NCBI RefSeq assembly: GCF_008831285.2
Contig: NC_045145.1
Span: 22,150,040-22,214,039, forward strand
Direction of reading: 5' to 3'
DNA length: 64,000 nt
DNA from: Nymphaea colorata
Lineage: Eukaryota; Streptophyta; Magnoliopsida; Nymphaeales; Nymphaeaceae
Shown: positions 1-60,033 of the stretch, in pieces
Layout: each line of letters starts with the position of its first letter
Numbering within the stretch: the stretch's first letter is position 1
Notes under the pieces: model-generated
What the model was told of the DNA's origin: nothing
The model's input: only the letters and a program-made list of their open reading frames with translations
The model's database searches: none
Made by a program: the position numbers and the translations under genes

Positions 1-443
1 TTGAAGGGCTAAAACATGCGTTGGGTTTGACCAGGTTGACTGATTCTGCAAGGCCTTTCACATTGATGACGAAGAATTCAACAGTCGATCCCGCGCTCCG
101 GTGAAGGCCCTCAAGTTCCTTGCCACAGCCCCAATAAACGATCGGTGTCTACTGCGGCAACATTGTCTTCTTAGTTTCTTTCTTGTTTCATGTCCTTCCG
201 CTAGCTAAGTCGTAGCAAGCAAGATTTTCTCTTAACAACATTCAAATTAACTAGTCAGTCTCCAACGTAGAGAAACGTTGGTGCTGCCATTAATTGGTGC
301 CGCCAAAACCTTTAAAAGTTCGTAGAAAAAGGGTGTAACCCATTCAACACGTCCAATTTGAAATCTGCAATTTCTACGTCATTGCTCATCATTGTCGATC
401 TTTCAGTCCCTACACGGCATGTACCAATCTTGTATTTTGGATC

Positions 444-452
444 TATAAATAG
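444..452 (+). promoter_or_regulatory. TATA box of first matrixin gene
   Basis: A TATAAATAG sequence lies about 80 bp before the start codon, which would put the transcription start near 475-485. The same box in the same setting precedes the second copy. The upstream block from about 138 is conserved between the two copies, so the promoter was duplicated with the gene. Confidence 0.65.
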
Positions 453-533
453 CTGCCACCATATGCACCAGACATTGTACAAATCTCTCTAGTAAGAGGT
501 TAATTAGGAGGTTCTGCAGTAAGTGCCTTAGTC

Positions 534-1469
534 ATGGGTTGCAGTACATTCATTGTGGCAATTCTTGTGTTGGTTTCCCTTCATGGTGCTAGCTGCCGGA
601 TGTTGGCTGCTGACGCCGGCAAGGAGAGGTATGTCCGGGCAGACCTCAGCCAGCTCACCGGTTGCCGGCGTGGGCAAAATCAGGCTGGGCTTGCCTCCCT
701 GAAGCGATACTTGAATCATTTTGGTTACCTCGACAGCGAGGGAGCCGATGAGTTCTCAGATGAATTTAACGAGGATCTCGAGGCTGCACTCAGGACGTAC
801 CAGCTGAATTTCAATCTGAACGCCAGCGGAGTCCTGGACGAGCCCACGGTGCAGAAGCTTATCCAGCCCAGATGCGGTGTCTCTGACATTGTCAATGGCA
901 CCAACTTGATGAAGTCCGGCCGCCACCGGCACATCCCCGGAGTCGGCCATTTCGTCATGCATTATGCATTCTTTGCCGGCATGCCCCGGTGGCCGGATTC
1001 TCAGCGTAATCTCAAGTACACCTTCTCTACCGACAATCAGCAATATGGAGCAGAGCAGCTGAGGTCCGTCTTCTCTGCGGCGTTCGCCAAGTGGGCAGCA
1101 GTGTCGCCGTTCCAATTCGCTGAAGCCTCTGATGGCGAAGTAGCCGATCTAGAGCTTGCTTTTTACAGCGGAGATCATGGGGACGGCCGTCCCTTCGATG
1201 GGCCGGGTACCGTCCTTGCACATGCGTTTGCGCCTACAAATGGAAGGCTTCATTTCGATGCCGATGAGGCCTGGCTGCCTGACGCTACCGGGACAAACGG
1301 AATGGATCTCGAATCGGTGGCAGTCCACGAAATCGGCCATCTTCTTGGGCTCGGCCATTCTGCGGACATAAATGCGATCATGTATCCGTCAATTGGCGCT
1401 GGAGTGAGGAAGGTGGACCCGAATTCCGACGATGTTCAAGGGATCCAAGTGCTTTATGGCTCTAAGTAA
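534..1469 (+). CDS. Plant matrix metalloproteinase (matrixin, family M10A), copy 1
   Basis: A single-exon gene for a 311-aa secreted zinc endopeptidase. Residues 1-21 form a hydrophobic signal peptide ending near Cys21. A peptidoglycan-binding-like prodomain follows and ends in the cysteine switch PRCGVSD (112-118), whose Cys would hold the catalytic zinc in the latent enzyme. The catalytic motif HEIGHLLGLGH (265-275) supplies the three zinc-binding histidines and Glu266. Met283 in AIMYPS is the Met-turn. His215, Asp217, His230 and His240 fit the structural zinc site. There is no haemopexin domain, as is usual in plants. The protein stops right after the catalytic domain, so it lacks the GPI-anchor tail common in plant MMPs and is probably freely secreted into the apoplast. 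The start at 534 is the first ATG after the TATA box. The precise substrate is unknown. Confidence 0.95.
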   Translation: MGCSTFIVAILVLVSLHGASCRMLAADAGKERYVRADLSQLTGCRRGQNQAGLASLKRYLNHFGYLDSEGADEFSDEFNEDLEAALRTYQLNFNLNASGVLDEPTVQKLIQPRCGVSDIVNGTNLMKSGRHRHIPGVGHFVMHYAFFAGMPRWPDSQRNLKYTFSTDNQQYGAEQLRSVFSAAFAKWAAVSPFQFAEASDGEVADLELAFYSGDHGDGRPFDGPGTVLAHAFAPTNGRLHFDADEAWLPDATGTNGMDLESVAVHEIGHLLGLGHSADINAIMYPSIGAGVRKVDPNSDDVQGIQVLYGSK

Positions 1470-1588
1470 AACACCATTAGTGGACGTATCTGTTGGATGA
1501 AATGATGAAGAAGTACGCTGAGAAGATATATAGTTCACGATAGGCCAATTTGTTACTTGTTTAAGTTGAAGGATTCAAGGGAAATGGG

Positions 1589-1700
1589 AATAAAAAGTTG
1601 GTTCCATTGGTGTCTTATAGCGTGTCTTGTTCCACATATGTCGAGTGGGCTCGTATGGATCATGTCCCCTTTTCTGTATTTATAATAAGTTCATTTGTTG
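1589..1700 (+). terminator. Likely 3' end and polyadenylation region of copy 1
   Basis: An AATAAA hexamer sits at 1589-1594, about 120 bp after the stop codon. A T-rich stretch follows with a second A-rich signal near 1680. The same block follows copy 2 near 5985-6070. Inferred from motif and conservation only. Confidence 0.45.
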
Positions 1701-1739
1701 TTTTCTAGTGTTGCCTTCATTCATATAAGTTCTCAAGGT

Positions 1740-2442
1740 TGGATAAAACATCACTAATTTTCAAATCTATCCAACTTCAAAACCTAAAAGTTATGAAGGA
1801 GTGTTTTTCTTGTTTGAATGAATGACTGAAGTTCCCAAAACACAAATGCACTTCAGTGTAATTATTTGAAAACCCAGTTTTAAACATGTTTGGGATGTTT
1901 TGACGAAACTCTTTTATCACAAACTGAAAAACCTGCCCCTTCGTCGCCCCTCTGAATACACGAACTCGTTTCTAAAAACTACTTAAAAATCATGCTTCAT
2001 GAAACCCATTTTAAACAAAATCTATCCAAGGGTGTCACGAATGGAGCAAGATTTTTCTTTTTCTTTTTTTTTTTTCTTTTGAGGGCCGAATAGTATTTTT
2101 CAAAATTTGTAGAGGGCCAAGTAACATTTTTTAAAACTTTTGCATGGTCCAAATTAAAAATTTTAAAAGATATAAGCATAATTTTTTTTTCCTGAAAAAT
2201 AATTTTTGGGGTGGGGGGTGTTAGGAGGGGATGGATTCTCTCCACCCCATAAGTGTCATCTAAATGCTGCCTAAAAGGCTGTGCAGAAATAACAAGGTAA
2301 GGGCACAACTGATACCTTCTATATCATGTTCCAAAAACTGCTTATATATAATCTATAAAAAGAATCTTTTTTATTATTTTTTGTATAATTAGTTGGTTTA
2401 AGATAATTAATGAATGCTTATGAGGAGACATTGCAACTTGCC

Positions 2443-2487
<45 letters not shown>

Positions 2488-2823
2488 ACAAAGGAGATTA
2501 ATTTAAGAACCCTAACTCACTGCTCTTTCTTTTTTTTTTTGTTCTGATCACTCATATGCCAGCTTTTTCTTTCTCCTCTTTCTTTTTCATAACTATCTTC
2601 ACCACTCTAAGAGTGGTGCATTCTAAGGAGAGAAGGGAACTCGGAATTCATTGTAAATATTTTGAGATTGTGATGGCATGTCTGTAATCAGATTATTAAT
2701 TTCATAAGAAAATAGCTCTTCCTTAATGGTGATTTTTTTCATAACCCCGATGGTGTCCGGTGGATAACAGGAACATTACAAATGGAAAACTGAGTGTGCA
2801 TCCATGGACACAAGCACACACAC

Positions 2824-2855
<32 letters not shown>

Positions 2856-4397
2856 GTAAATATATATATATAGAGAGAGAGAGAGAGAAATTAGTAAAAT
2901 TAAACTAGACACCCAGGTCAGAAATAAAAACCAAACCCTTTGATTTTTGAAATGTTTTTTTTTTTTTTGGCAATTTAACCTTATTGATATGATCTTCAGA
3001 ATGGGTTGATGCAAAAAATATATTAAGTATATCATTTGTTAGAGTTTAATATTGTTTTTATAATAATAAAAAAAGTGAAAGACCCCCATAGCATGATAAT
3101 AAAGAAAACAACATTTTTTATTAAAACAACTTGAATCAAAGCATGTTCTATATCAAATGGTTTTAATAAGCATATTAAGATAATTATGTTTTATTTAAAA
3201 TAATTTTTTAACAAAAAAACTAAAGGATCTGGTTTGTATCCTGTAACTATAACTATGTGTCGGGTTTTTACCAATCTCTCTCTCTATTTAAGGAAGAAAA
3301 CAATTAACTTAATATACGCTTCTCATCATATTACTCTTAAGATGTAGGGTTAGATTGTAAAAAAATTATTTATTTACTTTATAACATCTCGTTTTTGCCT
3401 CTTACCCAGGTGGTCTGCTTTTTACCAACTTTCTTATGTATTCAAAGGTCTGATAACATTAATTTTGACGTCTTTCACAAGTTTAGCAGAAGCAATCATA
3501 TGTTTGCAAGGAAAACCATAAAATATATTTTATTAAGCATTAAATTAAGGTCAAGAGTCTTGAGGAATGGACGTCTTTCAAAAGTTTGGCAGAATTAATG
3601 CTATGTTTGCAATTAAAATCATAAAATGTATTTTATTAAGGATTAAATTAAGGTAAAAAGTCTTAAGGATCGAAGGTCGTTAAATTTGATATATATATAT
3701 CGAAGGTCGTTAAATTTGATATATATATATATATATATACGTAGCAAGTTTTTAATATTTTGGTATCTACATGTTCCTAGATTGTCCAATTTCATATATA
3801 TATCGGAATTATTAAAAGAGTTAAATGGTCGAAGTGGCCAGAAGATGCTATTCGAAGTCTAGAGGGCCAACGAAGCAGTATAATTGTATATGTAACCACC
3901 AATAGGGAACTTTATTAGCCACTTCAGATCGCGGTCTTCAGCCCATAAACGTCATTGAGGGCTACCGATCGGACAGCAACAGAACAGCACCATTAATGAG
4001 GATGCTGGGAGGAGGTGTGCTCCGCATCGATAACCAGGACGCGGGAAGCAAAGTCAGTCTTTGGTCGGTCAGTGCTGGAGGACGTTGGTCTCTTGACGTC
4101 GCTGGACGTCTTTCGCAAGTCTAGCAGAATTGATTATATCTTTACCAGCAAAATCAGAACTTATATATACATATATGTATATACATATATCTGCAGTGGT
4201 GGACAGTGGCCGGATAGCCAACATTTCAAAATTGGTTGTTAGAAAAAAACAAAAAATCATTATTAAAGTCACCATAAGCTGTCATTATATCAAAAACCAT
4301 AGATAATATCACTTACTATTTTTTTACTGATAAATTTTAAATCTTAAGCATTTTGTTTAACTAAAACATATTGTTTTTCTCCAATCGAACGTATTCG
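1740..4397. repeat. Intergenic DNA with microsatellites and short tandem repeats
   Basis: No gene is supported here. Contents: a CT/CA compound microsatellite at about 2442-2490; a CT/TA/GA compound microsatellite at about 2820-2888; a roughly 103-bp unit repeated in tandem at about 3468-3670 (each copy starts with ACGTCTTTC), with further diverged copies near 4107, 6440 and 9308; and a short duplication running into an AT repeat at 3676-3740. Part of 3290-3430 resembles 61500-61640, so it is a dispersed repeat. Confidence 0.6.
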
Positions 4398-4625
4398 AAT
4401 GTTTAAATCTACATGACAATAAACTATCGGTGTCTACTGAGGCAACATTGTCTTCTTAGTTTCGTTCTTGGTTTCATGTCCTTCCGCTAGCTAAGTCGCA
4501 GCATGCATGACAATGTTTAAATCTACATGACAATAAACTATCGGTGTCTACTGAGGCAACATTGTCTTCTTAGTTTCGTTCTTGGTTTCATGTCCTTCCG
4601 CTAGCTAAGTCGCAGCATGCATGAC
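4398..4625. repeat. Tandem duplication of 114 bp upstream of copy 2
   Basis: Positions 4398-4511 and 4512-4625 are essentially identical 114-bp units. Each contains the conserved upstream block (CATTGTCTTCTTAG through CCGCTAGCTAAGTCG) that occurs once before copy 1 at about 138-225. The second metalloproteinase promoter therefore carries this block twice. Confidence 0.85.
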
Positions 4626-4838
4626 TTTCTCTTAACAACATCACATTAACTAGTCAGCCTCCAGCGTAGAGAACTATTGGTGCCGCCATTAATTCTGGAT
4701 CAACGAAACCTTTAAGAGTTCGTAGAAAAAAGGTGTAACCCATTCAACACGTCGAATCCACAATTTCTAGGTCATTGCTCATCATTGTCGATCGTTCAGC
4801 ACCTACACGGCAAGTACCAATCTTGTATTTTTTTTATC

Positions 4839-4847
4839 TATAAATAG
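4839..4847 (+). promoter_or_regulatory. TATA box of second matrixin gene
   Basis: TATAAATAG lies about 93 bp before the start codon of copy 2. It sits in the same context as the box of copy 1, with a small insertion between box and ATG. Confidence 0.65.
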
Positions 4848-4939
4848 CCGATCCCATGCTCCCACCATATGCACCAGACATTGTACAAATCTCTCTAGTA
4901 AGAGGTTAATTAGGAGGTTCTGCAGTAAGTCCCTTGGTC

Positions 4940-5875
4940 ATGGGTTGCAGTACATTCATTGTGGCAACTTTTGTGCTGGTTTCCGTTCATGGTGCTAGCT
5001 GCCGGATGTTGGCTGCTGACGCCGGCAAGGAGAGGTATGTCCGGGCAGACCTCAGCCAGCTCACCGGTTGCCGGCGTGGGCAAAATCAGGCTGGGCTTGC
5101 CTCCCTGAAGCGATACTTGAATCATTTTGGTTACCTCGACAGCGAGGGAGCCGATGAGTTCTCAGATGAATTTAACGAGGATCTCGAGGCTGCACTCAGG
5201 ACGTACCAGCTGAATTTCAATCTGAACACCAGCGGAGTCCTGGACGAGCCCACGGTGCAGAAGCTTATCCAGCCCAGATGCGGTGTCTCTGACATTGTCA
5301 ATGGCACCAACTTGATGAAGTCCGGCCGCCACCGGCACATCCCCGGAGTCGGCCATTTCGTCATGCATTATGCATTCTTTGCCGGCATGCCCCGGTGGCC
5401 GGATTCTCAGCGTAATCTCAAGTACACCTTCTCTACCGACAATCAGCAATATGGAGCAGAGCAGCTGAGGTCCGTCTTCTCTGCGGCGTTCGCCAAGTGG
5501 GCAGCAGTGTCGCCGTTCCAATTCGCTGAAGCCTCTGATGGCGAAGTAGCCGATCTAGAGCTTGCTTTTTACAGCGGAGATCATGGGGACGGCCGTCCCT
5601 TCGATGGGCCGGGTACCGTCCTTGCACATGCGTTTGCGCCTACAAATGGAAGGCTTCATTTCGATGCCGATGAGGCCTGGCTGCCTGACGCTACCGGGAC
5701 AAACGGAATGGATCTCGAATCGGTGGCAGTCCACGAAATCGGCCATCTTCTTGGGCTCGGCCATTCTGCGGACATAAATGCGATCATGTATCCGTCAATT
5801 GGCGCTGGAGTGAGGAAGGTGGACCCGAATTCCGACGATGTTCAAGGGATCCAAGTGCTTTATGGCTCTAAGTAA
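4940..5875 (+). CDS. Plant matrix metalloproteinase (matrixin, family M10A), copy 2
   Basis: A 311-aa single-exon paralogue of the gene at 534-1469. I see only four residue differences: positions 10, 11 and 16 in the signal peptide and Ala97 to Thr in the prodomain. The cysteine switch PRCGVSD, the zinc motif HEIGHLLGLGH and the Met-turn are unchanged, so the mature catalytic domain appears identical. The start is ATG at 4940, the same position as in copy 1; an in-frame TTG six bases upstream is not a eukaryotic start. The near identity extends through promoter, 5' leader and 3' region, so this is a recent tandem duplication or a pair kept alike by gene conversion. The promoter differs by the 114-bp duplication, so expression could differ even though the enzyme does not. 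Confidence 0.95.
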   Translation: MGCSTFIVATFVLVSVHGASCRMLAADAGKERYVRADLSQLTGCRRGQNQAGLASLKRYLNHFGYLDSEGADEFSDEFNEDLEAALRTYQLNFNLNTSGVLDEPTVQKLIQPRCGVSDIVNGTNLMKSGRHRHIPGVGHFVMHYAFFAGMPRWPDSQRNLKYTFSTDNQQYGAEQLRSVFSAAFAKWAAVSPFQFAEASDGEVADLELAFYSGDHGDGRPFDGPGTVLAHAFAPTNGRLHFDADEAWLPDATGTNGMDLESVAVHEIGHLLGLGHSADINAIMYPSIGAGVRKVDPNSDDVQGIQVLYGSK

Positions 5876-6565
5876 AACACCACTAGTGGACGTATCTGTT
5901 GGATGAAATGATGAAGATACATAGTTCACGATAGGCCAACTTGTTACTTATTTAAGTTAGATGATTCAAGGGCAATGGGAATAAAATGTCGGTTCCATAT
6001 GTTCCACATTTGTCGAGTGGGCTCGTATTGATCATGTCCCCTTTTCTGTATTTATAATAAGTTCCTTTGTTGTTTTCTAGTGTTGCCTTCATTCATATAA
6101 GGTCTCAAGGCTCAAGAACCACATGTTATTCGAAGGAACGATTAGTTATCAAGTAGCGCTTCTCTAATTTGAATGAATAACTGGCGTTCCCAAAAGCATA
6201 TCTACATCATCATAACACTGCTTCTGAAGATGGTAATGAATTGTGTCTTGGATGATGAAAGTGTTGCATTGTCATGACCCCAAGTGTACTTCGTTTTATT
6301 GGTAGCACTTGTTCTACCAAACACTAAGCTGCTGTTTGGATGACAGCTTAAAATTAAAGATTGGAGGCCTCAAGACCCACTGTAGACATGTTTGGGTGAT
6401 GTTTTGACGAAACTCATTTTTCACGAACAGAAAATTAAACCTGTCATATGCTTGCAAAGAAAATCAGAAAATATATTTTATTAAGGATTAAATTAAGTCA
6501 AGAGCTCTCATAAGGATCGAAGGTCATTAGGTTATATATTTATTTATTTATATTTTATGTATTTC

Positions 6566-6601
<36 letters not shown>

Positions 6602-8194
6602 ATTTTGTAAGATACTTATATCTACATATATATTCCTATACTGACCTATTACGTATCGGAATTATTAATAGAATTAAAATAGTACTCGAAGTTGCCGGCA
6701 GATATTGATCGAAGACTAGACGACCAAACAAGCAGTGAAATTCTATTTGTAACCAAGAATTACGGAACTTTATTGGTCACTTTTAGATCGTCGTTTTCAG
6801 CCTATATACATCAGGCGTGTTATATACACCATCCTATGTAATGATCATAATGCTCTATGTCATAAAAGGATGATCTTTCTTCAGATAAAAACAGTAACGA
6901 AATGTTAAGGTAGCGTTTGGATGAACTCCATGAAAAAATGGTTTTGTCAAAACCTGATTTTCGTGTTTGGATAACATGACAAAAATCAGGCTTTCACTCT
7001 TTAAAACCTGGTTTTTGTTTGGATGACTTAAAATGGGTTTTGGAGGTACTTTAAAAATTGAATGCAGCTGAACGGTTCCCAGACAACTTACTTCACCCAC
7101 AAATAATATGTAGACATCTTAAATAACACACAGTGAATCTTTATCCCTTCCCCACCATTCTCACTTATCGGTAATTTCTCATTAATTTTTATGTAGTATT
7201 TGCATGCTTTGGTTCAAACTGGTTTTATAAAAAGATTAATGATTTTTTACCATTAAATCCTTAATTATTAAAGCCGTTAGTTTTTAATTCCCCACAAGAC
7301 ATAGCTCAGGGTGAAAAACTGCCTTATAATATAATTTAACTCACTATATCTATCATTAGGTAATATACCTGTATGTAAAGCCAATGCTGCCGTGCGCCGG
7401 ACGGCTGTCAGATGGATACAATTTTAAAATCTGCCGTTAAAAAAAAACAAAAATCATCGTTAAAGCCACGATAAACTGTCATTACATCATAAACCACGCA
7501 TGAATACTAACAATTATACTCATTTAGTTACAAATTTTAAAATTTAACTAGCGCAATATCCGATATATGGCAGCTTTGAATTCCTCATTGTAAATATGTT
7601 TCACTGATCTAAACTCAAGAAAGTTGTATCTTGAGAGACAGGAAATAGCAGCAAGTTTGAATCGAGAAAAAGAGAGAGATGTTTAACTAAAACATGCTGT
7701 TTTTTTTATCACAAATCGAATGTATTCGAATGCTTAAATCTACGTGACAATAATAAAAAAAATGCAGGCATGTCTATATAATTCGAAGTTAACTACTTTT
7801 TATGAACATGTACTATCAAGCTGATTAGCATCCCAGCTCTCACGCACCATGGAGATGTTGAAAGCTACATGATAATAGAAATTAGCAGAAATGAGATGCT
7901 CAAATTGGACTTGTAACTAATGGTCTTTGCTTTTGCGGCTTATAAAATTCGATTCACAGGATTTCCTTAATGAGTTAATTTGTGCATTAATCAAGTACAT
8001 TATACTGGATATATTGAGAAAATAAAAGAAAAATAAGGAAGCACTTGTAAGAGGCATATGAATTTGGAAGTCATATAATCTGAAGGATGTATTAATGTAT
8101 ATATATAACACTTGAATATTTTACATATTTCATCCCGGCCGGCCATTTTCTACATCAAGCTGACCATTCAGTCAGCCAGCATTCAAGCAGAAAG
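5876..8194. repeat. Rest of tandem unit B, no gene
   Basis: No coding region is supported. About 5876-6110 repeats the 3' flank of copy 1. An AT microsatellite lies at about 6570-6599. Blocks at about 6440-6540, 6660-6810 and 7395-7760 match unit A. A segment at about 6905-7050 has several GTTTGGAT motifs typical of short plant transposons, but I cannot define its ends. Confidence 0.5.
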
Positions 8195-9205
8195 TTGAAA
8201 GACTAAACATGCGTCGGGTCTACCAGAGTGACTAATTCTGCAACGCGTTTCACATTGATGACGAAGAATTCAACCATCGATCACGCTCTCTGGTCACGGC
8301 AGCCAGGTTCCTTTCCATTACTTGAAAAGGACCACAACAACAATGAATGATTAGGTTTCACATTGAGTGTGAGTACATTAATGTCTTGTTAAGTTCCAGC
8401 TTCCAGCTTCGTTTCCTTCTGCGGGTTAAGTCGCTGCATAGTTAGTAGCATCGAGACCAGTCGGTCTCGAAAATAGACAAATATTGGTGCCTCCATTTAA
8501 AGATTTAAAATCGTATAAAGAGAGTATAACCCATTCAACACGTCCAATTTGGGGTCTAAGTAGCTTATCATTGTCATGGGCAGAGTCAAAGTCAGGAAGT
8601 AGTTTTCATGATGCCAACCGAATTATGGTTTCATAATTTTGACAGAAGCTGAAATATATATCATTTTTAAAATTTTTATATTAGATATATTAATTTTTTT
8701 TAAATTTATACGTATTTTTTTGACAAAATTTTTTGAAAGGAGGCCAGGGTCCTTGCCGGACCCTCCTTGGCTCCTCTGATGACAATTCCTTTTAAATATA
8801 AGAAGGTCGTCGTAACACTAAGAGTGAGTGGAATGCACAAGACGCAGCCGACATGCACAAAAAAAAAAGTGAGACTAAAGTATTTTGAGCATTTTTTTAA
8901 TGCACATTTTGGTCTTTTAATTTTTGATTATTTTATCATAAAACTTTCTTTTTCACTATTCTGATCATTACACTATATATGTGTGTGGGTGTGTGTGTCC
9001 TTTAGTTGAGAAATAGCTGCACCACTGGTTTCAAAACATTCATTGCCGCAATTATTTTGCTGGTTGCTCTTCATGGTGCTAGCTGCCGGATTCTGGCTGC
9101 TGACAACGGTAAGCAAGGCCAATGTCCGGTAAGACCTCAGCCAGCTCACCGGTAGTTAAAATAAGGCTGCATTTGCCTCCCCAAAGCGATACTTCAAATG
9201 TAAAC
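8195..9205 (+). pseudogene. Third, truncated matrixin unit (5' relic)
   Basis: The stretch 8195-8580 matches the far upstream region of copy 1 (1-390). After about 420 bp of unrelated inserted DNA, 9003-9205 matches the 5' leader and the first part of the coding region. The start codon is lost (the aligned triplet at about 9024 reads ACT), and the signal-peptide and early prodomain region carries several indels and an in-frame stop. Homology ends shortly after the GCGATACTT segment, before the cysteine switch, so no catalytic domain remains. It is a dead older member of the array. Confidence 0.85.
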
Positions 9206-11533
9206 ACAAGTGACCTTTAACGAAGCATCAGTCATCATGGAAAATCATCTCTTGACAAACGTAAACGAGCTCAATCTTTTCTTGGAGTTATTTCATCTCG
9301 AGAATGGCCGTCTTTCACAAGTCTAACCATACTGATCAGATAGTGAGAAATTTTAAAATCAGAAAATGTGCAAAACTTAGGGATGTCAACACATTGGATT
9401 TGAATGTCTTCTTTACTTATTTAAAACTAAATATGAATCTGAATTCATTTGGATATTTATTTAAAATTAAGTCTATATCCTGTTGGAGGTACCCATTTCC
9501 TAAATCCAAATCTAATCCGACTTTTAGTTGGACGTTAAACTGCTTTCTATATCCGACTTTTTTGAAGTAGTTTGGTTAGATGTCCGGTCTGAATCCGACT
9601 AGTTGACATCTAAAAATCAAGAGTCTTAAGAATAACGGGTCATCAAATTCGAACGACGAATGCAGATCAACATTTTTTAATATTCCAATATCCTTTTGAG
9701 TACTTTTTTTTTCATCTTTATAAAAAATTTCTTTTTTTTTATTAAACGGGGGCTTTTTTTATTGTTTACCATACTGACGCACTTTATTTTTGTGTGACAC
9801 CAATAGCGCGCATTTTGTTCTGTTAGAGGTCTTTTTTTCTTTTGCATAAGGGTATTTTTGTCTTTTTTTAAAAAAAAAAGTTAACCTTTTTCCCTCTTCC
9901 AATTAAGGGGCATTTCTATCTTTTGCTCCTATTGTTTACGTTCGTCAAGCTACAGTACCTACGGATTGAGTCCCTTCTTTTGTAGTAATTTTGTTTAGTC
10001 AGAGTTATATGCTACTTGTTGAGTTCAACAAATTACATATATATGCTATGTCACCAAGATGGGTGGTGTTGTGGGTGCCGGCATATCTCAAAACATTTAA
10101 GTGTGGCGGTGCGACGAGAATATTTATTATTATTATTAATTTATTATTATAATATATTAATAATATAAAATTTGTTTAAAAAACCCCAAAAATAAATTGA
10201 AATGAACGTGGTGTGGTTTGGGTACGCACCCACGTCGCATCGATGCAGGTACCTTTTCTTTTCTGCCGCAGAAAGACCCAACCCAAGCCATGGCAATTAC
10301 CGGGCACGGATAGTTCGACGATCCAACTATATGTTTCCAGATCAACCTAAAAAGAAAAAATATCTATATTTCATAAAAAAATCAATTAAAAAAGGCTCAT
10401 TCAAATGCGATCCCCAAAACAAAGGTCATCAACTGCAGTTAGGACGAGTTTTGGTGCACCCAGTAGCATGTGGGCTGGTGTGGCAACACCAATCCTTGAA
10501 AATTTTTATTAGGAAGGAGGAGATAGACCAGGTTCAGCTAGATATGGTGCCCACATCAATGCCCCATAGGCACTCAAACCCATTAAGGTAAGCGCCCCTT
10601 TGATAAAAATTTCTGGCTCCTACACCCAAGACATTCAAGCTTATTTCGTTTATTTTGATTTATTTTTTGTACATTTTTATCATTAAAACTCAAAACATAA
10701 TGTTTAGAGACCCTTCAAAAAGCAATAAACTGAGGCCTCGTTCAACGTTTAGGACACTAGATAAACTCAGCCAAACTCACACTTGGGGGTAGCTTATTCA
10801 ACATTCAAGCCCTAGCTAATGGCATGCAGCAGACACGCAAACATACATATATATATATATGGAAATCGAATGGCGACTCTAGTTTTGTAAAATCACTTAG
10901 CCTTCTAACCAAAACCGTCAGATTCAATATGATGGACAGTTTAAAAAAAATAAGGAGAAAAGCTGATGAGCATTTTCATCGTCTAGTATTAGTTCGCACA
11001 TTTTTTTCCTTGTTTTATATCACTATCCACTTGCTTCGGATGGACGAGCCTGGTTAAATGTTAAATAGCTTAGTGACTCTAGATAATTAAAATCACCATT
11101 CACTATATATATATATATATATATTCTTGGGACTCTCTAATGTGATTAGGTCTCAGATGCAGGTAATTGGAACCGAATATCCACATTTCTTCTTAATAAA
11201 ATTGATTAATATATGTGAGGGCATTACCATCCTCAATTAGCAGGATTTTAAATACCATGTTAGGATGGATAAAAGGTGTAGGAAGAAGGAGCATATATAG
11301 ATCCTCTACACTTAAATGTGGGCAATAAATTACACGGGAACCTTCTGCTAGGTGCACTTAATGGGTGCCGAAGGCTTTGAATCGGTGAACTACGGTGCAT
11401 TTGAATATTGCCTTGGATAGTGCTTTTTGGGCCTTACTGTAGGACGACATCAGATCCAAACTCAATCCACCAGGGATCTCATCTCACCGCCAAAAAGCGT
11501 CCTGACTTCTTCGGTAAATGCACCACTGAAGAC
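9206..11533. other. Gene-poor intergenic DNA
   Basis: I see no convincing gene. There is a diverged copy of the dispersed ACGTCTTTC repeat near 9308, T-rich low-complexity DNA at about 9690-9900, and AT microsatellites near 10846-10862 and 11103-11125. A 129-codon open frame at 10202-10591 has no recognisable domain and a low-complexity lysine-rich middle, so I do not call it. Confidence 0.4.
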
Positions 11534-11630
11534 TAGGGCTGAACACGAGCCGAGTCGAGCCGAGCTCAGTCAGCTCGAACTCGGCTCGACTAAGTAATAC
11601 ACGAGCTCGACTCGGCTCGAGCTCGAATGT

Positions 11631-13388
11631 AGCTCGACTATCCTGGCTCGAACTCAACTCGATAGTCAATTGTCGAGCTCGAGCTCGACTCGATTAAGCT
11701 CGATAAGCTCGTTTATACTTGTGGAGCTCGAGCTCGACCGTGAGCTCGACTAAGGCTCGAATACCTAAGCTCGACTAAGGCTCGAATAAGTGAGCTCGAT
11801 TAATATTACTCATCCTTATTGAGCTCGTTTAAGGCTCGATTAAAAGCATGATAAATAATGAATTGAACATAAGAAACAGAAGTAGCACAAATCAAATTCG
11901 TTTATCTCATAATTACACTTATCAAATGTTAAAGTTAAAAAATTGAGAAATGTTAAAATTTTAAGTAAATTATGAGATGGGAAGGTAAAGCAATAAACAA
12001 CAGAAGTATACTTAATAACGTACAAGATTGTTAAAGCTCTTCAGGTTCACACAGAAACTGCTATTACACGGAATGGGACCTTCAAGATTGTTGTTAGCCA
12101 GGTTTATGGAAAACCACGCAGGATTAGATTGTGCAGAAACGAGAACCCGTCAACTTGTTTCCATGCAAATACCTGTAAGCTAGCTACATAAAGAGAAAAA
12201 GGAAATGAAAACAAATGAGGACATTGCTTTCAAAAAACACAGCAATATCAATAATTATCCAAACCTCCAAAGGGCTAAGTCAACCAATTTTGAACACAAT
12301 GAAAAAATGCTGTTTATCAACAAGGAAAAAGCACACGCTTCCAAAAATGCTGAAAAGTAAAGAAACAAAACTTCAGTTCATTTCTTGAAACTTTCAATTT
12401 TGATCACAATCAAACATCAAACATCACAACTTTCCTTCTATATAAACCTTTTTCCCCAGGGATCAACTAAGTGGACATGTTCTAGTCTTGAACATTTAAA
12501 ATTCATAAGTTCTCCATTAAAATATCAACAAAAAATAGCATTGAAGAATGCTGAACGTGTCACAAAACAATGCAAGCAAAACTCATGCTTAAAGTGTTAC
12601 AAACTTTGAACTGGTAGGTAACGAAGTAATTGATATAAAACTCCCAACTTTTAGACTTAAGACATACTTACAGTTTCTCAGTGTAAGTCAAGTTTCCGAG
12701 TATTGGAGGAATAGGGCCAGTCAAAAGATTGCAGCTCAAGTCCCTGGTTCAATACCAAATTTGTTATCAGATGGATCTCGTCTATCACACAAGCACACAG
12801 CTTGATGCAGAAAGAAAGTAAAGAAAATAAAAACTTTTGGCATGATAAATACACTTAAGGAATATTGCATCTCCACACTGATACAAAGATACAAAGAGAA
12901 CTGATTCATCACACACTGCTAATAAGAAGTAAAAATGAGCAGAAACTACTCAACTAGCAGAGAACTGGGTTTCTCTTACTATTCTAATCCTTAGTTGAAT
13001 CTATTTCAAGCTATTGTTAGTGTTGCAAGCTCAGCTGAAATCATGGGAAGAACAGAGGAAGGGTTCTGGCCTCTCCCAAATGCATCTTGCAACTTGTCAA
13101 GAAGATTGTTGCTATTCTCATCAGAGTGAGTACAAATCAAGAAAACCTTGGGAATCTAGAAACTGCATTAGCTGTAAAGTGAAAGGAAAAATCAATATCA
13201 ATACAGAAGCAGGACAAGAACAAAAAAAAGACAGATAAATGTCAACAGCAGCAGGACAATAACAAAAAAATGCTTGCAGAAAACACCTTGGTGATGCTTC
13301 TAATACATAAGAATGTTCCTTACTAACTGATGAACCAAACTTTAAGTGTGCTTATGATCTTTCTCATGAATTTTAAGCAGTTCAACAA
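11631..13388 (+). repeat. Left arm of long inverted repeat
   Basis: This arm is the reverse complement of 14070-15840. Matching positions sum to about 27471 over most of the length (for example 12385 with 15086, and 12609 with 14862) and to about 27458 at the inner end, so only a few small indels separate the arms. By eye the arms are roughly 97 percent identical or better. On this arm the captured ERECTA-like sequence lies on the minus strand. Confidence 0.92.
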
Positions 13389-14069
13389 CTGGATTTCTTG
13401 AGTTCTTGAGTTCCTGAATTTTAAGCAGTTCGCTTTTTCTGTTACTGGAGTTCCCTTTTATTTTTGAACCTCATACTTGTGATCACGTGGGGATCGTCTG
13501 GATTTCTTGTTTGAAAAGTTTAAAGGTCGGTAATGACGTTGAACGCGGTTGAATTTCTTGGTCAGTATCACTAGTAGGGTTATTTTTTGTTAGATTAGTG
13601 CACTTAGCTGATTTGCACGTGCACATGTGTTGCTCTCTTTGCTGCCTAAGTTGATAAACAAAATTCTAGAACGTGCAAATCTGATTTCCTCGTTTGTGTT
13701 GGAAAGTGGGAGAAGCTGGAAGATGGCATTCGACCGTAATGCTACTCCAAATTAATCAGTTGGTCCGTTCAATCCCACTCCCCAAAATGCTGATTAGTTT
13801 TCCAGATTGGTTCACTCTTCATGTTTTATCTTGAATGTTTCCAGATCCTTCATGTTTGTTTTTCTGAAGAATGATTTAATCTTATGCTGATAGTCTTTTA
13901 GGCAAGGAAAAAAGGGGAAAATCCTTATCGGCAGTTTGACTAGTATGCCCAGCATCCTACACGGTACAAGAAAACGGCACATCTGCAAATGCTTTGAGTC
14001 ATTGAGAGAGCATCTGACAGGTAGGAATTGATTTAAAGAACTGGGTTTCTCTTAAAGCTGCATTGTGAG
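13389..14069. other. Loop between the inverted arms
   Basis: About 680 bp of single-copy sequence separates the arms. I recognise no gene or domain in it. Confidence 0.6.
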
Positions 14070-14288
14070 TTGTTGAACTGCTTAAAATTCATGAGAAAGA
14101 TCATAAGCACACTTAAAGTTTGGTTCATCAGTTAGTAAGGAACATTCTTATGTATTAGAAGCATCACCAAGGTGTTTTCTGCAAGCATTTTTTTGTTATT
14201 GTCCTGCTGCTGTTGACATTTATCTGTCTTTTTTGAGATTTCTTGTCCTGCTTCTGTATTGATATTGATTTTTCCTTTCACTTTACAG

Positions 14289-14465
14289 CTAATGCAATTT
14301 CTAGATTCCCAAGGTTTTCTTGATTTTTTGGTGAGGTGTACTCACTCTGATGAGAATAGCAACAATCTTCTTGACAAGTTGCAAGATGCATTTGGGAGAG
14401 GCCAGAACCCTTCCTCTGTTCTTCCCATGATTTCAGCTGAGCTTGCAACACTAACAATAGCTTGA
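14289..14465 (+). pseudogene. Captured exon-like fragment of unknown origin
   Basis: An open stretch begins just after a pyrimidine-rich tract ending in TTTACAG, a good splice acceptor, and runs about 58 codons to a TGA. The peptide includes LMQFLDSQGFLDFLV and later LPMISAELATL. It looks like a real exon, helical and with balanced composition, but I do not recognise the family. The mirrored copy lies at about 13006-13182 on the minus strand. Confidence 0.45.
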
Positions 14466-14728
14466 AATAGATTCAACTAAGGATTAGAACAGTAAGAGAA
14501 ACCCAGTTCTCTGCTAGTTGAGTAGTTTCTGCTCATTTTTACTTCTTAATAGCAGTGTGTGATGAATCAGTTCTCTTTGTATCTTTGTATCAGTGTGGAG
14601 ATGCAATATTCCTTAAGTGTATTTATCATGCCAAAAGTTTTTATTTTCTTTACATTCTTTCTGCATCAAGCTGTGTGCCTGTGTGATAGACGAGATCCAT
14701 CTGATAACAAATTTGGTATTGAACCAGG

Positions 14729-15440
14729 GACTTGAGCTGCAATCTTTTGACTGGCCCTATTCCTCCAATACTCGGAAACTTGATTTACACTGAGAAACTG
14801 TAAGTATGTCTTAAGTCTAAAAGTTGGGAGTTTTATATCAATTACTTCGTTACCTACCAGTTCAAAGTTTGTAACACTTTAAGCATGAGTTTTGCTTGCA
14901 TTGTTTTGTGACACGTTCAGCATTCTTCAATGCTATTTTTTGTTGATATTTTAATGGAGAACTTATGAATTTTAAATGTTCAAGACTAGAACATGTCCAC
15001 TTAGTTGATCCCTGGGGGAAAAGGTTTATATAGAAGGAAAGTTGTGATGTTTGATGTTTGATTGTGATCAAAATTGAAAGTTTCAAGAAATGAACTGAAG
15101 TTTTGTTTCTTTACTTTTCAGCATTTTTGGAAGCGTGTGCTTTTTCCTTGTTGATAAACAGCATTTTTTCATTGTGTTCAAAATTGGTTGACTTAGCCCT
15201 TTGGAGGTTTGGATAATTATTGATATTGCTGTGTTTTTTGAAAGCAATGTCCTCATTTGTTTTCATTTCCTTTTTCTCTTTATGTAGCTAGCTTACAGGT
15301 ATTTGCATGGAAACAAGTTGACGGGTTCTCGTTTCTGCACAATCTAATCCTGCGTGGTTTTCCATAAACCTGGCTAACAACAATCTTGAAGGTCCCATTC
15401 CGTGTAATAGCAGTTTCTGTGTGAACCTGAATAGCTTTAA
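14729..15440 (+). pseudogene. Captured ERECTA-family LRR receptor kinase fragment
   Basis: The first exon piece (14729-14799) encodes leucine-rich-repeat sequence containing LTGPIPPILGNL followed by YTEKL, a hallmark of the ERECTA/ERL receptor kinases. It ends at a GTAAGT donor. A retained intron of about 500 bp ends in TTACAG at 15298, and the reading frame resumes with YLHGNKLTG, exactly as in ERECTA. An internal deletion follows, then LANNNLEGPIP. No signal peptide, transmembrane or kinase part is present, so it cannot make a receptor. The same sequence lies inverted at about 12031-12742. ERECTA receptors control organ shape and stomatal patterning; any effect here would have to be through RNA. 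Confidence 0.82.
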
Positions 15441-16189
15441 CAATCTTATACGTTATTAAGTATACTTCTGTTGTTTATTGCTTTACCTTCCCATCTCATA
15501 ATTTACTTAAAATTTTAACATTTCTCAATTTTTTAGCTTTAACATTTGATAAATGTAATTATCAGATAAACGAATTCGATTTGTGCTACTTCTGTTTCTT
15601 ATGTTCAATTCATTATTTATCATGCTTTTAATCGAGCCTTAAACGAGCTCAATAAGGATGAGTAATATTAATCGAGCTCACTTATTCGAGCCTTAGTCGA
15701 GCTTAGGTATTCGAGCCTTAGTCGAGCTCGCAGTCGAGCTCGAGCTCCACAAGTATAAACGAGCTTATCGAGCTTAATCGAGTCGAGCTCGAGCTCGACG
15801 ATTGACTATTGAGTCGAGTTCGAGCCAGGATAGTCGAGCTAGACACGGGCCAGGAACAGAGTCAATCTTGGAATGCAGCATGAGACAACCATAAAATGGG
15901 GACAATGAAGTGCAACCTGCTGGGGGCCCAAGGAAACGGCAACTGGGGCCGTAGAGACTTTATCGCATGCCGGCAGCATGAAAACTTCCAAGACTGTCCA
16001 CCAATTCTCCCCAAGTAAAGAGCTGTTACTTAATTCCTATGGAGGTTTACACAGTAAAAGATAGGATTACGACACTACCATGCATTGACAGGACGTGGAA
16101 AGTCTTATTGGAGGAGTGAATTGGTACCTCTGACTCACCCACACGAACCTGTTGTTGAAGTCCCTGTTGAGGTGATCAACATGATCCTA

Positions 16190-17735
16190 TCATAACACAG
16201 TAGACCCTTGATAAAAAGAGGTGGGCTGTGGCTGTCAGACAGGCGCTCACTTTTTTGAATTTCACAGGTGTCATTCTCCGCAAAAAATGAAGCAACAGGG
16301 CTCCTCTCTTCTTTTTTTTTCTTCAAATCGGAATTACATATTAGTTCTTGCTCAATGCCCTTTAACAACCCCCCTTCCCCCTCCTTTTTCTCCCTCTTTG
16401 AAAACTTGCAAAGGTAATACAATGTAAAATTTGTGGTTCTGCCCCTGAATTAAGGACAAGAGAAACAGAAACTAGCTGTAAGGAACAACAACTTTGTCCG
16501 CTTAGTGCCTTCAAGTTGAGAAAACTGGGAGATTCTCACCAGAAGATTTTTCTTTTGTTTCTTTTTTGATGAATGGGTGCCAATCTATTATTAAGAGAGA
16601 ATAATGAATACAAAAAGAATGAGAAAAAAAAAGACTGCAACAAGTCTTCACTACACAGTGGCGATCGTATTACCACCTGTATCTAGTCTATTATCCTCAC
16701 TACCTCTAACCAACAATCAGAGGTGATTATTGCAAATTGAAATATGAACAAATATCTGCATGCCCAATCAATTCTCCCTTACAGATTGTAGATACCAGTT
16801 CCATAAGACAACCCTCATACGGCTTGGATTTCCGAAAGGGGGACAGAATTTTTGTTTTCAACCATAATTGGATAGCCTTCATAACATCCCTGCTCCAAGA
16901 TTGTTGCAGAAGAAGAGAAGAACATGTTTGCCAGATCTCATTCTTTAGCACTCTAACTGGTTTCAAAACATTATCATGCATAGGCTTGTTCCTAGAGATC
17001 CATATCTTTTTTCTTCAGTCTGTCTGACCCATTCGGATTTCATTTTTCCATCTGTCAAAAAGTGGAATCAGTGAGTTTCCATATGACTATATGAAAACAT
17101 AACCTCCAATATTTCTGAAATTCTTTATAGGAAAATCATTTACTAAACCACCATTGAAGAACAGCACATAAATCAGAATTTGGCATTCTAATTATACCGA
17201 ACCAGGATAGGACATAGTTCCAAACACAGCTTCAGAATATAGGCAGTCAAAAGTAGATGTTCCTGGTCCTCCACTGCTCTACAACAGAGAACACATCTGG
17301 AAGCTAACTCAACACCAAACTGTTGCAATCGAGTCTCAGTTTGTAAACCCCCTAAAGTAGCAAATATGTAGACCCGGAGGCTCAAGGAATAGGGCTAATC
17401 CATATCCATATGATCAACATGATTGTACCATAACACAGTAAACCCTTAATAAAGGGGGTGGCCTATGGTGTCAGGTGCTCACTTTTTTATTGTCACAGAT
17501 GTCACCCTTTGCAAAAGCTGAAGCAACAGCACCCCCCCCCCCCACCCTTTTTCTTTTCTTCAAATCGGAACTATCAATGCCCTTTAACAAAGGTAATAGT
17601 AATACTATGTAAAATTTGTGGTTCTGCCCTTGAATTAAGTACAAGAGAGACAGAAAGTGCTTGTAAGGAACAAGAACTTTGTCGGCTTAGTGACTTCAAG
17701 TTGAAGAAGACTGGGAGATTCTTACTAGAAGGTTG
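16190..17735. repeat. Pair of direct duplicates flanking a LINE remnant
   Basis: About 16190-16545 and 17420-17735 are diverged direct copies. Both begin around ATAACACAGTA, share CTTCAAATCGGAA in the middle, and end in CTGGGAGATTCT. The interval between them carries the LINE fragment. The copies differ by many substitutions and by homopolymer length (the second has a run of 13 C). Confidence 0.7.
16727..17385 (-). mobile_element. LINE (non-LTR retrotransposon) reverse-transcriptase C-terminal remnant
   Basis: On the minus strand, 17188-17385 encodes a peptide with RLQQFGVELASRCVLC, an acidic stretch and HLLL. This fits the zinc-binding domain at the C-terminus of plant LINE reverse transcriptases (zf-RVT). 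About 16727-17000, also minus, continues with KNEIWQ and a Trp-rich tail typical of the region after it. Frames are interrupted and the polymerase core is absent, so it is a fossil. Confidence 0.6.
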
Positions 17736-19774
17736 AATCTAAGTGGAACCTATAGCCTTTTGGCAGAGAGGAGTAGGCAAGAGTGGTTTCCATATATGCC
17801 ACAACTAAGGTCACATTAATGTAACACCTGTCAATCTAGTTGCAGCGCTACAATCCTCCTGCCGGCACTCTCTGTGTCAACAAAAATGGAAAAGAGATCT
17901 TTAGAAGTTAATTATACGTGACGTTTCTCTTTTAAGGACATTTTTACAAGAAAGAACAATGGCACTTATGAACACAGCCATGTAGAGCAGCGTTGACATT
18001 GTTATAGAGGACAAGGCCTAAGCCTAAGCAGTGCAAACTAATGTGATATAGAGAAAGTTCCTGCCATAGTTTTGGCAATATATGGATCCTGTAGGGTTCT
18101 AAGTTCTTCTTGCACTTAGTTGGTCCAAATTTGAATTATTTGCGGCCTCATTAAGATTGCCCAAGTTAGTCCGAGCTTGCTGCTCCCAGGGGACACAATT
18201 GTTGGACAGTGGATCCTAGACTCTGTTTTTAAAGTGGGCCAGCATCTCTTATATAACTTCTAGTTACAACTTCCAGCTTGTTCGAAATAGTGGAGACTCA
18301 GTGTGATCGCAGGATGACAATTTGTCTTTGAACCACATAAATACTTGTATTATTGTGTCCTTTTCTTCTTGGTCACAAGGATATGAGAAGATTTCATTCT
18401 TAACTCACATGAGATGGCAGTTGTGCACTGATGGCGCGAACATGGCTTGGCTACGAACAGTCACTAGCAAAGCCAAAATCCGGTTTCCGGTCTGTCCTCA
18501 TGCCATTATTTTGACATGAATGAGAATAAAAGTTCAAAGAACCGTGGATGTAGCTCTAATTCCTCTGTAAAAGATGCCTGACAATTACAAATCTTTGGTA
18601 GTTAAGCGTCAGTATACCATCCTAAGTGAAGAAAATAATGTGACTTGCAAGGTAAAGCAATTATCAAGAAAGAATTGAGTTACAGCTATACCTATGAATG
18701 CCGTAATATTTGGGCTGATGAAAGGAATCCACAAGTACTGAAAATCACCGGCCGTTTATCATCACAACCCAAACACACTGGTTGTCTATAAATAGATATG
18801 GAAGACTTGTCACTCAACAGTCAACAGTATAACATGTCTTATGTGCCTGTGTGTCAACCATATCAATACCAACATGCCCCTTTCTGTTCTTTCCATATGG
18901 AAAGATTCATCCAAGCAATGTGTAAATGACAAAACCCTGAACTTCTTTTTTCTCTCTTTTTTTGTTTTTAAGGACCAAAAAACAAACATAATAATGAAAT
19001 TTTTAAAAAATTAGGTGGGCGCTTGGCATTCATTTGTGTGGCCACATGTCTCCACACGGACCACATAAAAATTATACAAAATCAACTGCACTTTTTATGC
19101 CAACATTCTTGTCATCCGTCTCATCAGCATCCATATTGATAGAGTGGATAAGAAAGAGGAGCGTTAATGGAGAAAAGAAAAAAGAAAGATGTTCAAACGC
19201 CACCAAGTATTCTGATCCGGCCCCTAGAAGGCTCTTCATAACAAGATAAACAACTCTTTCTATTCCAGGCATTATTCACAGTGCATCCCTGAAATCTTTA
19301 CAAAAGTAAAAGGAGGGACCCAATCTTTTGACTGTGGGCTTGTTGTGCCGTGTGTGGATAAACTGCTTAATATACTAAGCCTCTCTTTTTAAAAGTTATG
19401 TCATCTGCTGGCTAGCGTGCCTTCCTTGTGTAGACCTACTCCCACTTATTGGAGGCTATGATTTTAATAGTTTCTTGAGTTCTTTTATCAACACTCGTGA
19501 ACACGATCCGCACATGCTATAAAATATAAATCTTCTGCGCTTCTTTTGCTTGTTTTTTAATTACTAGAACCTTTCCACAAACCAGATTAGTTAACCTGCC
19601 TACAATTAAAGAGCAGGTTAGAACTAGTACGAGGATATCCTTATAAAATGAACTTATTGAGCAGAGTGGCAGTTTTGGGACTTGATCAGTACACTTCTCC
19701 TTACATCCTTTGCAGCTCCTCTTGTCCTTCTGATGCCTTACAGTGTAGAAGATTTTAATGCTAAGTAAACTCCT

Positions 19775-27435: not shown

Positions 27436-27919
27436 TAGGGCTGCACACGAGCCGAGTCGAGACTCGACTCAACGAGCTCGAGCTCGAACTCGAGTCGAGC
27501 TACCTAACACAAGCTCGTGCTCGACTCGATTAAACAAAGTCGAGCTCGACTCGATTAACTCGATTAGCTCGTTTAAATAAAAATGATCCTTCTTTTTAAA
27601 ATATCTAGTAAATTTCATGACGTGGGATGAAATTTGTGAATTACTCAACCCTGCCAACAGTTTAGAGCTGCAAATAGACACCATTTGGTATTAGCTCATT
27701 ATTAAATATTATAGAATCATAAGCTGATGACTGAACAATTGAACAAAATGTAAATAGGACATAATGTATACGAGGAAATAAAAGTTTAAAATTGGCTACA
27801 CAGTATGGTAAAATAACAGCCAACTTCAGTAGTCAGCATATGTCCTTTGATGGAAAAAGAGACGAGCAGATTCAAGTCCAGATCTGAGCAGAGCATCATC
27901 TCCCAGAGGAAATTGGATA

Positions 27920-28400
27920 ATAGCAGCAAAGTATTGAGCAAGCTTTAGAATATAGTTTGAGAAAACGTAGACAGGAGTCAAGATCAAGGTTGTGCAGAAC
28001 AGAAAATAACCCATGAGTCCATGACCTCTGGCTTTGCATGTAAATCCCCAGCATCCTCAACCTCCCAGCTCCAAAGGCCTGTCCACACAGTGTCTCCAAA
28101 GCACTTCCCATACCCAGCTGCCATGATCACCAAAACCCAGTTCAAATTTCCAACAGAAATCATCCAATACATAGATGATATAATAAAGGACATGCTCCTT
28201 AGTGCAGAACAGAAATCATCCAATACGCAAATGATATAATACAATATATGTTCCTTAGTACACAACAACTAGCAGATAGAAACAAAGCTTTTTTGGTTTG
28301 ATGTCATGGGCTGCCATGTCTTACCAAGAAGCCAAAACCCAGCCCTGCAACCACATAGTTCTCTATGGACACAGCAGCGAGCTCCATAGCCATAGCTTCT
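27920..28400 (-). pseudogene. Captured MATE (DETOXIFICATION) transporter fragment
   Basis: On the minus strand, about 28326-28400 encodes ELAAVSIENYVVAGLGFGFL and ends at a GTAAGA donor. About 27990-28110 encodes MGSALETLCGQAFGAG then LGIYMQ, the conserved membrane core of plant MATE efflux proteins. The next segment, ILTPVYVFSNYILKL, lies in another frame, so at least one frameshift is present. The order and the retained splice site indicate a captured genomic fragment of the N-terminal half of a DTX gene. It cannot encode a functional 12-helix transporter. Confidence 0.8.
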
Positions 28401-28870
28401 TGCTCTCTATCAGTGATCTCCTGCACAGAGTGGGACTGCTCTGGTTCTCCAGCAGGGAAAGTGCTTTGGAGACAATCTAGCTTACAATGAAGTACGTCAA
28501 ACATGAGAAGCTAACAACCTAAAAGAATATAACATGAGAAAATGTTGTACTTTTACAGATGGATGCACATTCTCGCTGTTCTACTCTTTACTGGCAGGCC
28601 CTTTAGTGTAATGTGCACTAAATATTATTGCAGGATTCCCAACCATGACCTATGAATGAATGAATGAACAGAAAAAATCATCCCAGGCAACAGAGCAAGA
28701 AACAACGTGAGAAGATAAATAAAAAGAAAGAATAATAAAAGAATAATAAAAGCTATTTATTTCAAGCCATGAATGAATGAACAGAAAAAATCTTCCCAGG
28801 CAACAGAGCAAGAAACAACGTGAGAAGATAAAGAACAAGAAAGAATAATAAAAGCTATTTTTTTCAATGT
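28140..28870. repeat. Two short tandem duplications inside the hAT-like element
   Basis: A unit of about 62 bp is repeated at 28150-28265 (both copies contain AGAAATCATCCAATAC). A unit of about 115 bp is repeated at 28650-28870 (both copies contain CCCAGGCAACAGAGCAAG). The second pair differs by a small internal deletion. Confidence 0.75.
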
Positions 28871-51200: not shown

Positions 51201-51286
51201 CCTTCAGGCAACGACACAAGGCTCCATGTCTGGTTTTTAACCATAGAGTCAAGCTCTCCTTTCATGGCATTAATCCAGTGCCTATA

Positions 51287-59700: not shown

Positions 59701-60033
59701 TACCGAGCAATGATTTTGACAACTTGTGAAGTTGTTTGGTTAAAAGCCTTATTGAATGACTTGGGGTGGAGTCATGATAAATCAATCAATTTATATTGCG
59801 ACAATCAAGCAGCATTGCATATTTCAGCAAATCCAGTTTTTCATGAAAGAACGAAACACATAGAACTTGATTGTCACTTTGTAAGAGAAAAAATTTTGCA
59901 AGGAATAATTCGGGCTCATCATGTAACATCGTGTTTGCAACTAGCTGATATTTTCACTAAACCATTGGGGAGAGACGTTTTTCAAACTTTAAGAACCAAG
60001 TTGGGTATTTCAGATTTGCACACATCAACTTGA
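56800..60033 (+). pseudogene. Copia B pol polyprotein (frameshifted)
   Basis: Domains in order: protease with WVIDTGA (about 56875), GAG-pre-integrase (IWHMRLGHPS), integrase core (DDFTRSTWIF, CVGTPQQNGRVERKHRH), reverse transcriptase (GCRWVYKIK, then YVDDFIIARND) and RNase H (AYCDSDWASC, SAEAEYRAM, DIFTKPLG). The frame changes near 56900, near 57405 and near 58740. At the last point the segment that normally joins the VAKGYTQ and VAKL motifs is shortened. From 58738 to 60033 the frame is open to the natural stop. Confidence 0.9.

Follow-up and report, generated by a model that had tools for sequence, protein, structure and literature searches.

The DNA analysed here, hereafter the window, is a stretch of 64,000 nucleotides of Nymphaea colorata (contig NC_045145.1; C8:22150040-22214039 in a searched genome of 408 Mb and 783 contigs), and positions refer to the window unless a chromosome or a relative is named. 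It contains a long inverted repeat (C8:22161573-22165880), which the first-pass annotation had described as a natural hairpin locus with two nearly identical arms carrying exons of an ERECTA-family receptor gene. The repeat is recovered there by an inverted-repeat search as three paired blocks (11621-13145 with 14326-15850, 13134-13220 with 14240-14326, and 13224-13390 with 14068-14234), which are 98-100% complementary, and the innermost pair is 677 nt apart. The locus belongs to a family of hAT DNA transposons, and its arms contain pieces of two host genes, an ERECTA-family gene with leucine-rich repeat (LRR) exons and a gene that we take to be SCD1-like. The features of the locus are listed below.

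11526-11533, no strand: CTGAAGAC, candidate left half of a hAT target-site duplication
11534-11629, plus strand: outermost left hAT terminus (TAGGGCTGAACACGAGCCGAG...), present on the left arm only; the same terminus is seen in family members that lie between 8-bp duplications
11630-13390, plus strand: left arm, the left half of the hAT element, from the inverted-repeat search and the arm alignment
12672-12743, minus strand: ERECTA LRR exon A of the left arm, 72/72 identical to the donor exon
13391-14067, no strand: loop, in which 13427-13933 is hAT-internal sequence of sister copies
14068-15841, minus strand: right arm, a second, inverted copy of the left half, which stops ~96 bp before the hAT terminus
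14032-14495, plus strand: SCD1-like gene block, mirrored in the left arm
14032-14237, 14246-14462 and 14461-14495: parts of the SCD1-like block, namely an intron piece, an intron end with exon, and an inverted 35-bp piece
14596-15491, plus strand: ERECTA-derived block of exons and intron (donor L014), with a mirror copy on the minus strand at 11980-12875
14728-14799, plus strand: ERECTA LRR exon A of the right arm, 71/72 identical to the donor exon
15299-15328, plus strand: first 30 nt of the next ERECTA LRR exon, followed by a deletion, from the donor comparison
15366-15437, plus strand: third ERECTA LRR exon region, in which the donor acceptor AG is AT

A gapped alignment of the arms from 11630 gives 20 substitutions over ~1761 bp and two indels of 11 and 2 nt, with an identity of 98-99%; the substitution count becomes 24 if four columns before 11630, which lie outside the homology, are included. 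The near identity claimed for the pair is confirmed by these values, but the arms are of unequal length, in that the outermost ~96 bp (11534-11629) are found on the left arm alone. The ViennaRNA fold of 11630-15841 is one dominant hairpin with 1746 arm-to-arm pairs and a minimum free energy of -3295 kcal/mol (computed without a shuffled control), and the arms are thereby predicted to be still nearly fully pairable. The reading frames of the arms are interrupted by stops. A known structured RNA was considered and rejected, as no Rfam match is obtained in 9000-19000 at the gathering threshold. Additionally, the arm sequence is repetitive, with at least 55 matches in the genome (40 of 404 candidates scored).

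To place the locus in its family, relatives were sampled as 20 regions of 10 kb around the better match clusters, a subset of all clusters, and aligned to the window; the ends were inspected in 18 relatives, including a second hAT copy of the window. The left end of the family is TAGGGCTGAACACGAGCCGAG, and the right end is ...GTTGAACAGCCCTA or ...GTTGTGCA[GC]CCCTA. A perfect 8-bp target-site duplication flanks 12 of these 18 relatives (for example, GCCACATG in L017, GCTAGGGT in L018, GTTGTGTA in L023 and AACAGAAT in L012), and two others, L022 and L025, have a duplication matching at 7 of 8 positions. In the other four (L010, L011, L016 and L019), the flanks fail to match or one end was not located. 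The long relatives, located on C16 and C12, are L009, L010 and L012, which span 6.5-6.9 kb end to end, and L011, which likewise has the transposase region but whose left end was not found. According to the block matrix, the transposase region is present in these four long relatives (L009-L012), which carry the same gene fragments in a single orientation, and is absent from the window copy (0%) and from the fragment-carrying relatives L013, L015-L018 and L021. A frame of L012 (2083-3357, minus strand) matches PF14372, the hAT-like RNase-H domain (E 2.1e-30), and PF05699, the hAT dimerisation domain (E 6.8e-27). Two other frames that were scanned (181 aa in L012 and 248 aa in L010) have no Pfam match, and the transposase frames of L009, L010 and L012 are each interrupted differently.

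The family is a hAT DNA transposon, because hAT termini, 8-bp duplications and the hAT domains of L012 occur together. A Mutator-like element (MULE) or a fold-back element is ruled out by the 8-bp duplications and the hAT transposase. Copies with ERECTA- and SCD1-derived genomic fragments, introns included, are found on several chromosomes, some of them with the transposase region. No inverted repeat of at least 100 nt lies inside an element in the 20 fetched regions; the inverted repeats of the L015, L020 and L022 regions fall outside the element. L009 and L010 (C16, 1.10 and 1.20 Mb) share an identical left flank, CCAATGAT, and their right flanks are similar, which suggests a segmental duplication of the insertion. 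The second hAT copy of the window (27436-30298) has related ends and is flanked by the 8-bp duplication ATCGTAGG. It resembles the element under study, L012 and L013 near the ends only, and it matches neither of the retrieved donor regions, L014 and L020.

The presence of ERECTA-type LRR exons with intron sequence in the arms is upheld by the comparison with the genome's own ERECTA-family genes, a check that the first-pass annotation had proposed: exon A is present in both arms together with parts of two more exons, and a donor, L014, in which exon A is identical to the left arm at 72 of 72 positions, exists in the same genome. L014 matches the ERECTA-type block only and no hAT block, and on this ground it is assigned as the donor of the block. 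It lies on C10 (minus strand), and its successive exons are those of an LRR receptor kinase, with one LRR per exon and the kinase last. An ERECTA-type kinase stretch was used as the query of a genome search (150 of 1861 candidates scored); among the matches listed, L014 is first (E 6.8e-61, 89%) and a place on C9 is second (E 4.8e-56, 83%), and the third match falls to E 4.6e-35 (59%). Judged by these matches, L014 and the C9 place are taken as the two ERECTA-family genes of the genome. The donor is presumably ERECTA rather than ERL, a name given from residues of the kinase. Comparison of the LRR peptide with the PDB returns many LRR receptors, among which ERL1 is present but not first, and ERECTA is not implied by this search alone; the places matched in the genome by a 178-aa LRR query (150 of 2267 candidates scored) are taken for other LRR proteins.

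The ERECTA-derived sequence does not constitute a functional ERECTA-family gene: it comprises a single complete LRR exon and two that are partial or altered, with stops and one broken acceptor. In the block matrix, the ERECTA-type block is covered to 67% in L009-L012, 100% in L013, 22% in L015 and 3% in L028. Exon A has 1/72 mismatches in each of L009-L012 and 2/72 in L013. Selection that keeps the ERECTA identity was therefore rejected, since five sister copies have only 1-2 mismatches as well and the conservation in the arms is unremarkable. A simple pair of ERECTA pseudogenes is ruled out by the hAT ends and the sister copies.

The second captured fragment, which the first-pass annotation had missed, is 97% identical to its donor over 217 bp and is internally shuffled, with a small inverted segment of 35 bp. 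Coverage of the SCD1-type block is 47-100% in L009-L012, L015-L018 and L021 (block matrix). L020 matches this block only and no hAT block, and is thus assigned as its donor. An exon at this place (L020/L045, on C3) has a dDENN match (PF03455) below the Pfam cut-off (E 0.003, 17.9 versus 26.8 bits), and the upstream exon has no Pfam match. Further on, a WD40 repeat is present (PF00400, E 2.6e-7, 31.4 versus 27 bits), followed in strength by a second, weak WD40 repeat (E 0.041). A search of the PDB with the DENN-like peptide gives no significant match. We take the gene to be SCD1-like from its DENN and WD40 make-up and from protein sequence. The inclusion of introns indicates that genomic DNA was captured.

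The sole intact terminus of the window copy is the left end at 11534. A second CTGAAGAC was not found beside the right arm, which leaves the window element without a target-site duplication, and a right hAT end was not found beside the locus. The element has lost its right half and holds two oppositely oriented copies of its left half. On the minus strand, 15841 down to 13427 is arranged as in L012, beginning near the left end and running through the captured block into internal sequence; parts of L012, including the transposase region, are missing. In the loop, 76 bp (13934-14009) are lacking in each of the eight sisters whose matches flank this stretch. The junction of 36 bp (13391-13426) is accompanied by a 17-mer repeated at 13415-13431 and 13367-13383, an arrangement that suggests template switching.

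Window 13884-14039 matches C10:11674115-11674270, with 94% identity across the 76 bp lacking in the sisters, and this place is possibly a third capture donor. Further places in the genome that match the loop are C9:14040246 and C1:5007787.

The 20 sites at which the arms differ include 11908, 12039, 12687 and 12817. Polarisation of these differences by the relatives assigns 7 changes to the left arm and 12 to the right arm, with 1 not assigned; from 12922 inwards it relies on one relative, L012. Changes private to each arm indicate that both arms aged separately. Apart from a weak match close by (76%), the right flank is single-copy. On the left side, the flank query begins with ~194 bases that look like a dispersed repeat, and beyond them no second match occurs among the matches listed (40 of 213 candidates scored).

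The Kimura two-parameter distance from the ERECTA block to its donor is 0.060-0.065 (712 aligned sites), compared with 0.028 for the SCD1 exon and 0.040 for the SCD1 intron. The left arm is separated from L012 by 0.030 over 12372-13390, and the arm-to-arm divergence is about 0.011 (20/1761). These values would fit an order in which ERECTA was captured, SCD1 was then captured and the family spread, and the inverted duplication came last. At a substitution rate near 7e-9 per site per year, the duplication would be ~0.8 million years old; a slower rate would imply a greater age, and gene conversion would lower the apparent age.

The first-pass annotation had allowed that the arms might be too diverged from the parent ERECTA gene to pair with it. 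This is not the case, as 52/52 donor 21-mers of exon A are exact in the left arm, together with 10/52 of exon B and 14/52 of exon C in the element. For the SCD1-like gene, a 480-nt stretch from the exon start has 460 21-mers, 95 of which occur exactly in the element; the captured part is roughly the initial 174 nt of this stretch. Between the element and the 9 kb retrieved around the second ERECTA-family gene, two 19-mers and six 15-mers but no 21-mer are shared. Between the left arm and its sisters, the exact 21-mers number 747-844 for each of L009-L012, 526 for L013, 210-395 for L015-L018, and 42-148 for L019 and L021-L028; the whole element has 244 in common with the fetched ERECTA donor region. 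Since the sisters share far more 21-mers with the arm, most targets would be hAT copies if the hairpin is transcribed and diced, and they would include the stretch adjoining the transposase frames of L009-L012; targeting of ERECTA and SCD1 would be minor. The original description thus stands for a hairpin-forming locus with ERECTA exons able to pair with the donor, but it had overlooked the hAT identity as well as the SCD1-like fragment.

Inverted-duplicated silencing triggers are known from Mutator, and Mu killer is the best-known transposon fragment rearranged into a hairpin that silenced its family. In light of the structure described above, the window locus is a broken, inverted-duplicated, gene-capturing (Pack-type) hAT copy that probably serves as a Mu-killer-like source of small interfering RNAs (siRNAs) directed chiefly against its own hAT family; ERECTA or SCD1 might conceivably be affected as well. 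The duplication may have arisen when the element was excised or a gap was repaired, through aberrant repair or a template switch. A transcript, whether cryptic or produced by read-through, would then form a near-perfect double-stranded RNA of ~1.75 kb, which Dicer-like enzymes would cut into siRNAs of 21-24 nt. Most of these would silence and methylate the locus itself and the sister hAT copies, in the manner of a Mu-killer-like trigger, and a minority matching the ERECTA and SCD1 exons could weakly repress both genes.

According to a maize study, Mu killer (Muk) is an inverted duplication of a partly deleted MuDR for which an action through hairpin siRNAs was proposed, the hairpin arising by read-through from a flanking gene (PMC3440606). 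As in Mu killer so described, the same element end is present twice, the inverted duplication is partial, and the other end is missing; in the window, the second copy of the end is without its outermost ~96 bp. The arm length is also similar (~1.3 kb of mudrA per half of Mu killer versus 1.76 kb here). The window locus differs from Mu killer in being hAT rather than Mutator, in having arms without the transposase region, and in carrying two host-gene fragments.

Several points weigh against a Mu-killer-like action of the window locus. All steps beyond the DNA structure are inferred. The arms contain 0% of the transposase block, so that, unlike in Mu killer, the transposase coding sequence is not targetable. 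Other mechanisms may silence the sister copies, which have a single orientation. Moreover, the same study describes antisense transcripts in silencing plants and read-through sense transcripts in plants failing to silence (PMC3440606, 2012), which suggests that even the Mu killer hairpin model is not simple. The main rival is that the locus is an inert relic, an untranscribed inverted-duplicated hAT fragment that is passively methylated at most. This is possible, if on the unlikely side: it agrees with the lost right terminus, the absent transposase region, the frames with stops and the lack of an Rfam match in 9000-19000, but the arms are nearly fully pairable in the predicted fold, and long near-perfect repeats in plants often give siRNAs. 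Developmental regulation of ERECTA and SCD1 by a natural RNA interference locus, which the first-pass annotation had suggested for ERECTA, is improbable. Such a role would draw on the exact 21-mers (52/52 of ERECTA exon A, 95/460 of the SCD1-like stretch) and on the lack of any 21-mer in common with the 9 kb around the other ERECTA-family gene; however, the matched exon pieces are short, and the identity needs no selection because exon A has 1-2/72 mismatches in five sisters too. ERECTA and SCD1 both act in Arabidopsis stomatal development, and it is conceivable, though very doubtful, that the hairpin is a trans-acting regulator of an ERECTA-type receptor and an SCD1-type DENN/WD40 trafficking protein, which would couple both to the silencing of one hAT family.

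The remaining alternatives concern how the two arms came about. An arm identity of 98-99% could reflect an assembly artefact, namely a palindrome created when a read folds back or an adapter is missed; the first-pass annotation had named an assembly artefact as a refuting outcome. This is highly improbable because both arms have private substitutions polarised with the relatives (7 and 12), the arms differ in their outer ends, and the right flank is a unique sequence rather than the left flank reversed; the two indels and the collinearity of the loop with sister elements also argue against it. Two separate hAT insertions facing each other are unlikely, as the internal junctions are common to both arms, the passage from the right arm into the loop is collinear with the sister elements, and a second terminus or duplication is lacking. 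A young MIRNA-type locus, formed by inverted duplication of a target gene, is hardly credible: the inverted duplication does include ERECTA sequence, but the arms of 1.7 kb are not a short imperfect stem, and the duplicated unit is a transposon half and not directly the target gene.

Endogenous inverted-repeat siRNA loci exist in plants, such as IR71 of Arabidopsis, with which the window locus shares a long near-perfect repeat and a short loop but not the origin of its sequence. Captured host-gene sequence with identifiable donors (the ERECTA-family L014 and the SCD1-like L020) places the element with Pack-TYPE transposons. Pack-TYPE hAT elements are reported in a maize and rice survey (PMC8903248), and in hAT termini, 8-bp duplications, captured host-gene DNA and multiple copies the present family resembles them as described there. 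Pack-TYPE elements are described in that survey as non-autonomous (PMC8903248), whereas some fragment-carrying copies here hold the transposase region; the window copy differs additionally in being inverted-duplicated and without a right end. A paper on a hAT element that is both gene-carrying and inverted-duplicated was not found among the openly licensed papers that were searched. A natural hAT counterpart of Mu killer with exons of two developmental genes would allow the question of whether silencing spills from transposons to host genes to be addressed directly. One genome holds the donors, the sisters and the hairpin, and the arm-private variants let siRNAs be assigned to the hairpin.

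Elsewhere in the window, two tandem matrixin (M10 metalloprotease) frames of equal length are present at 504-1466 and 4910-5872, and a stretch of ~1.6 kb is 93% identical between 1-4000 and 4001-10000. A PPR/PRORP-like frame lies at 35586-36728 on the minus strand (PPR_long, E 4e-72; the PRORP match is below the cut-off). Frames of Copia-type retrotransposons occur on both strands, at 49759-53851 (minus) and 57402-60030 (plus).

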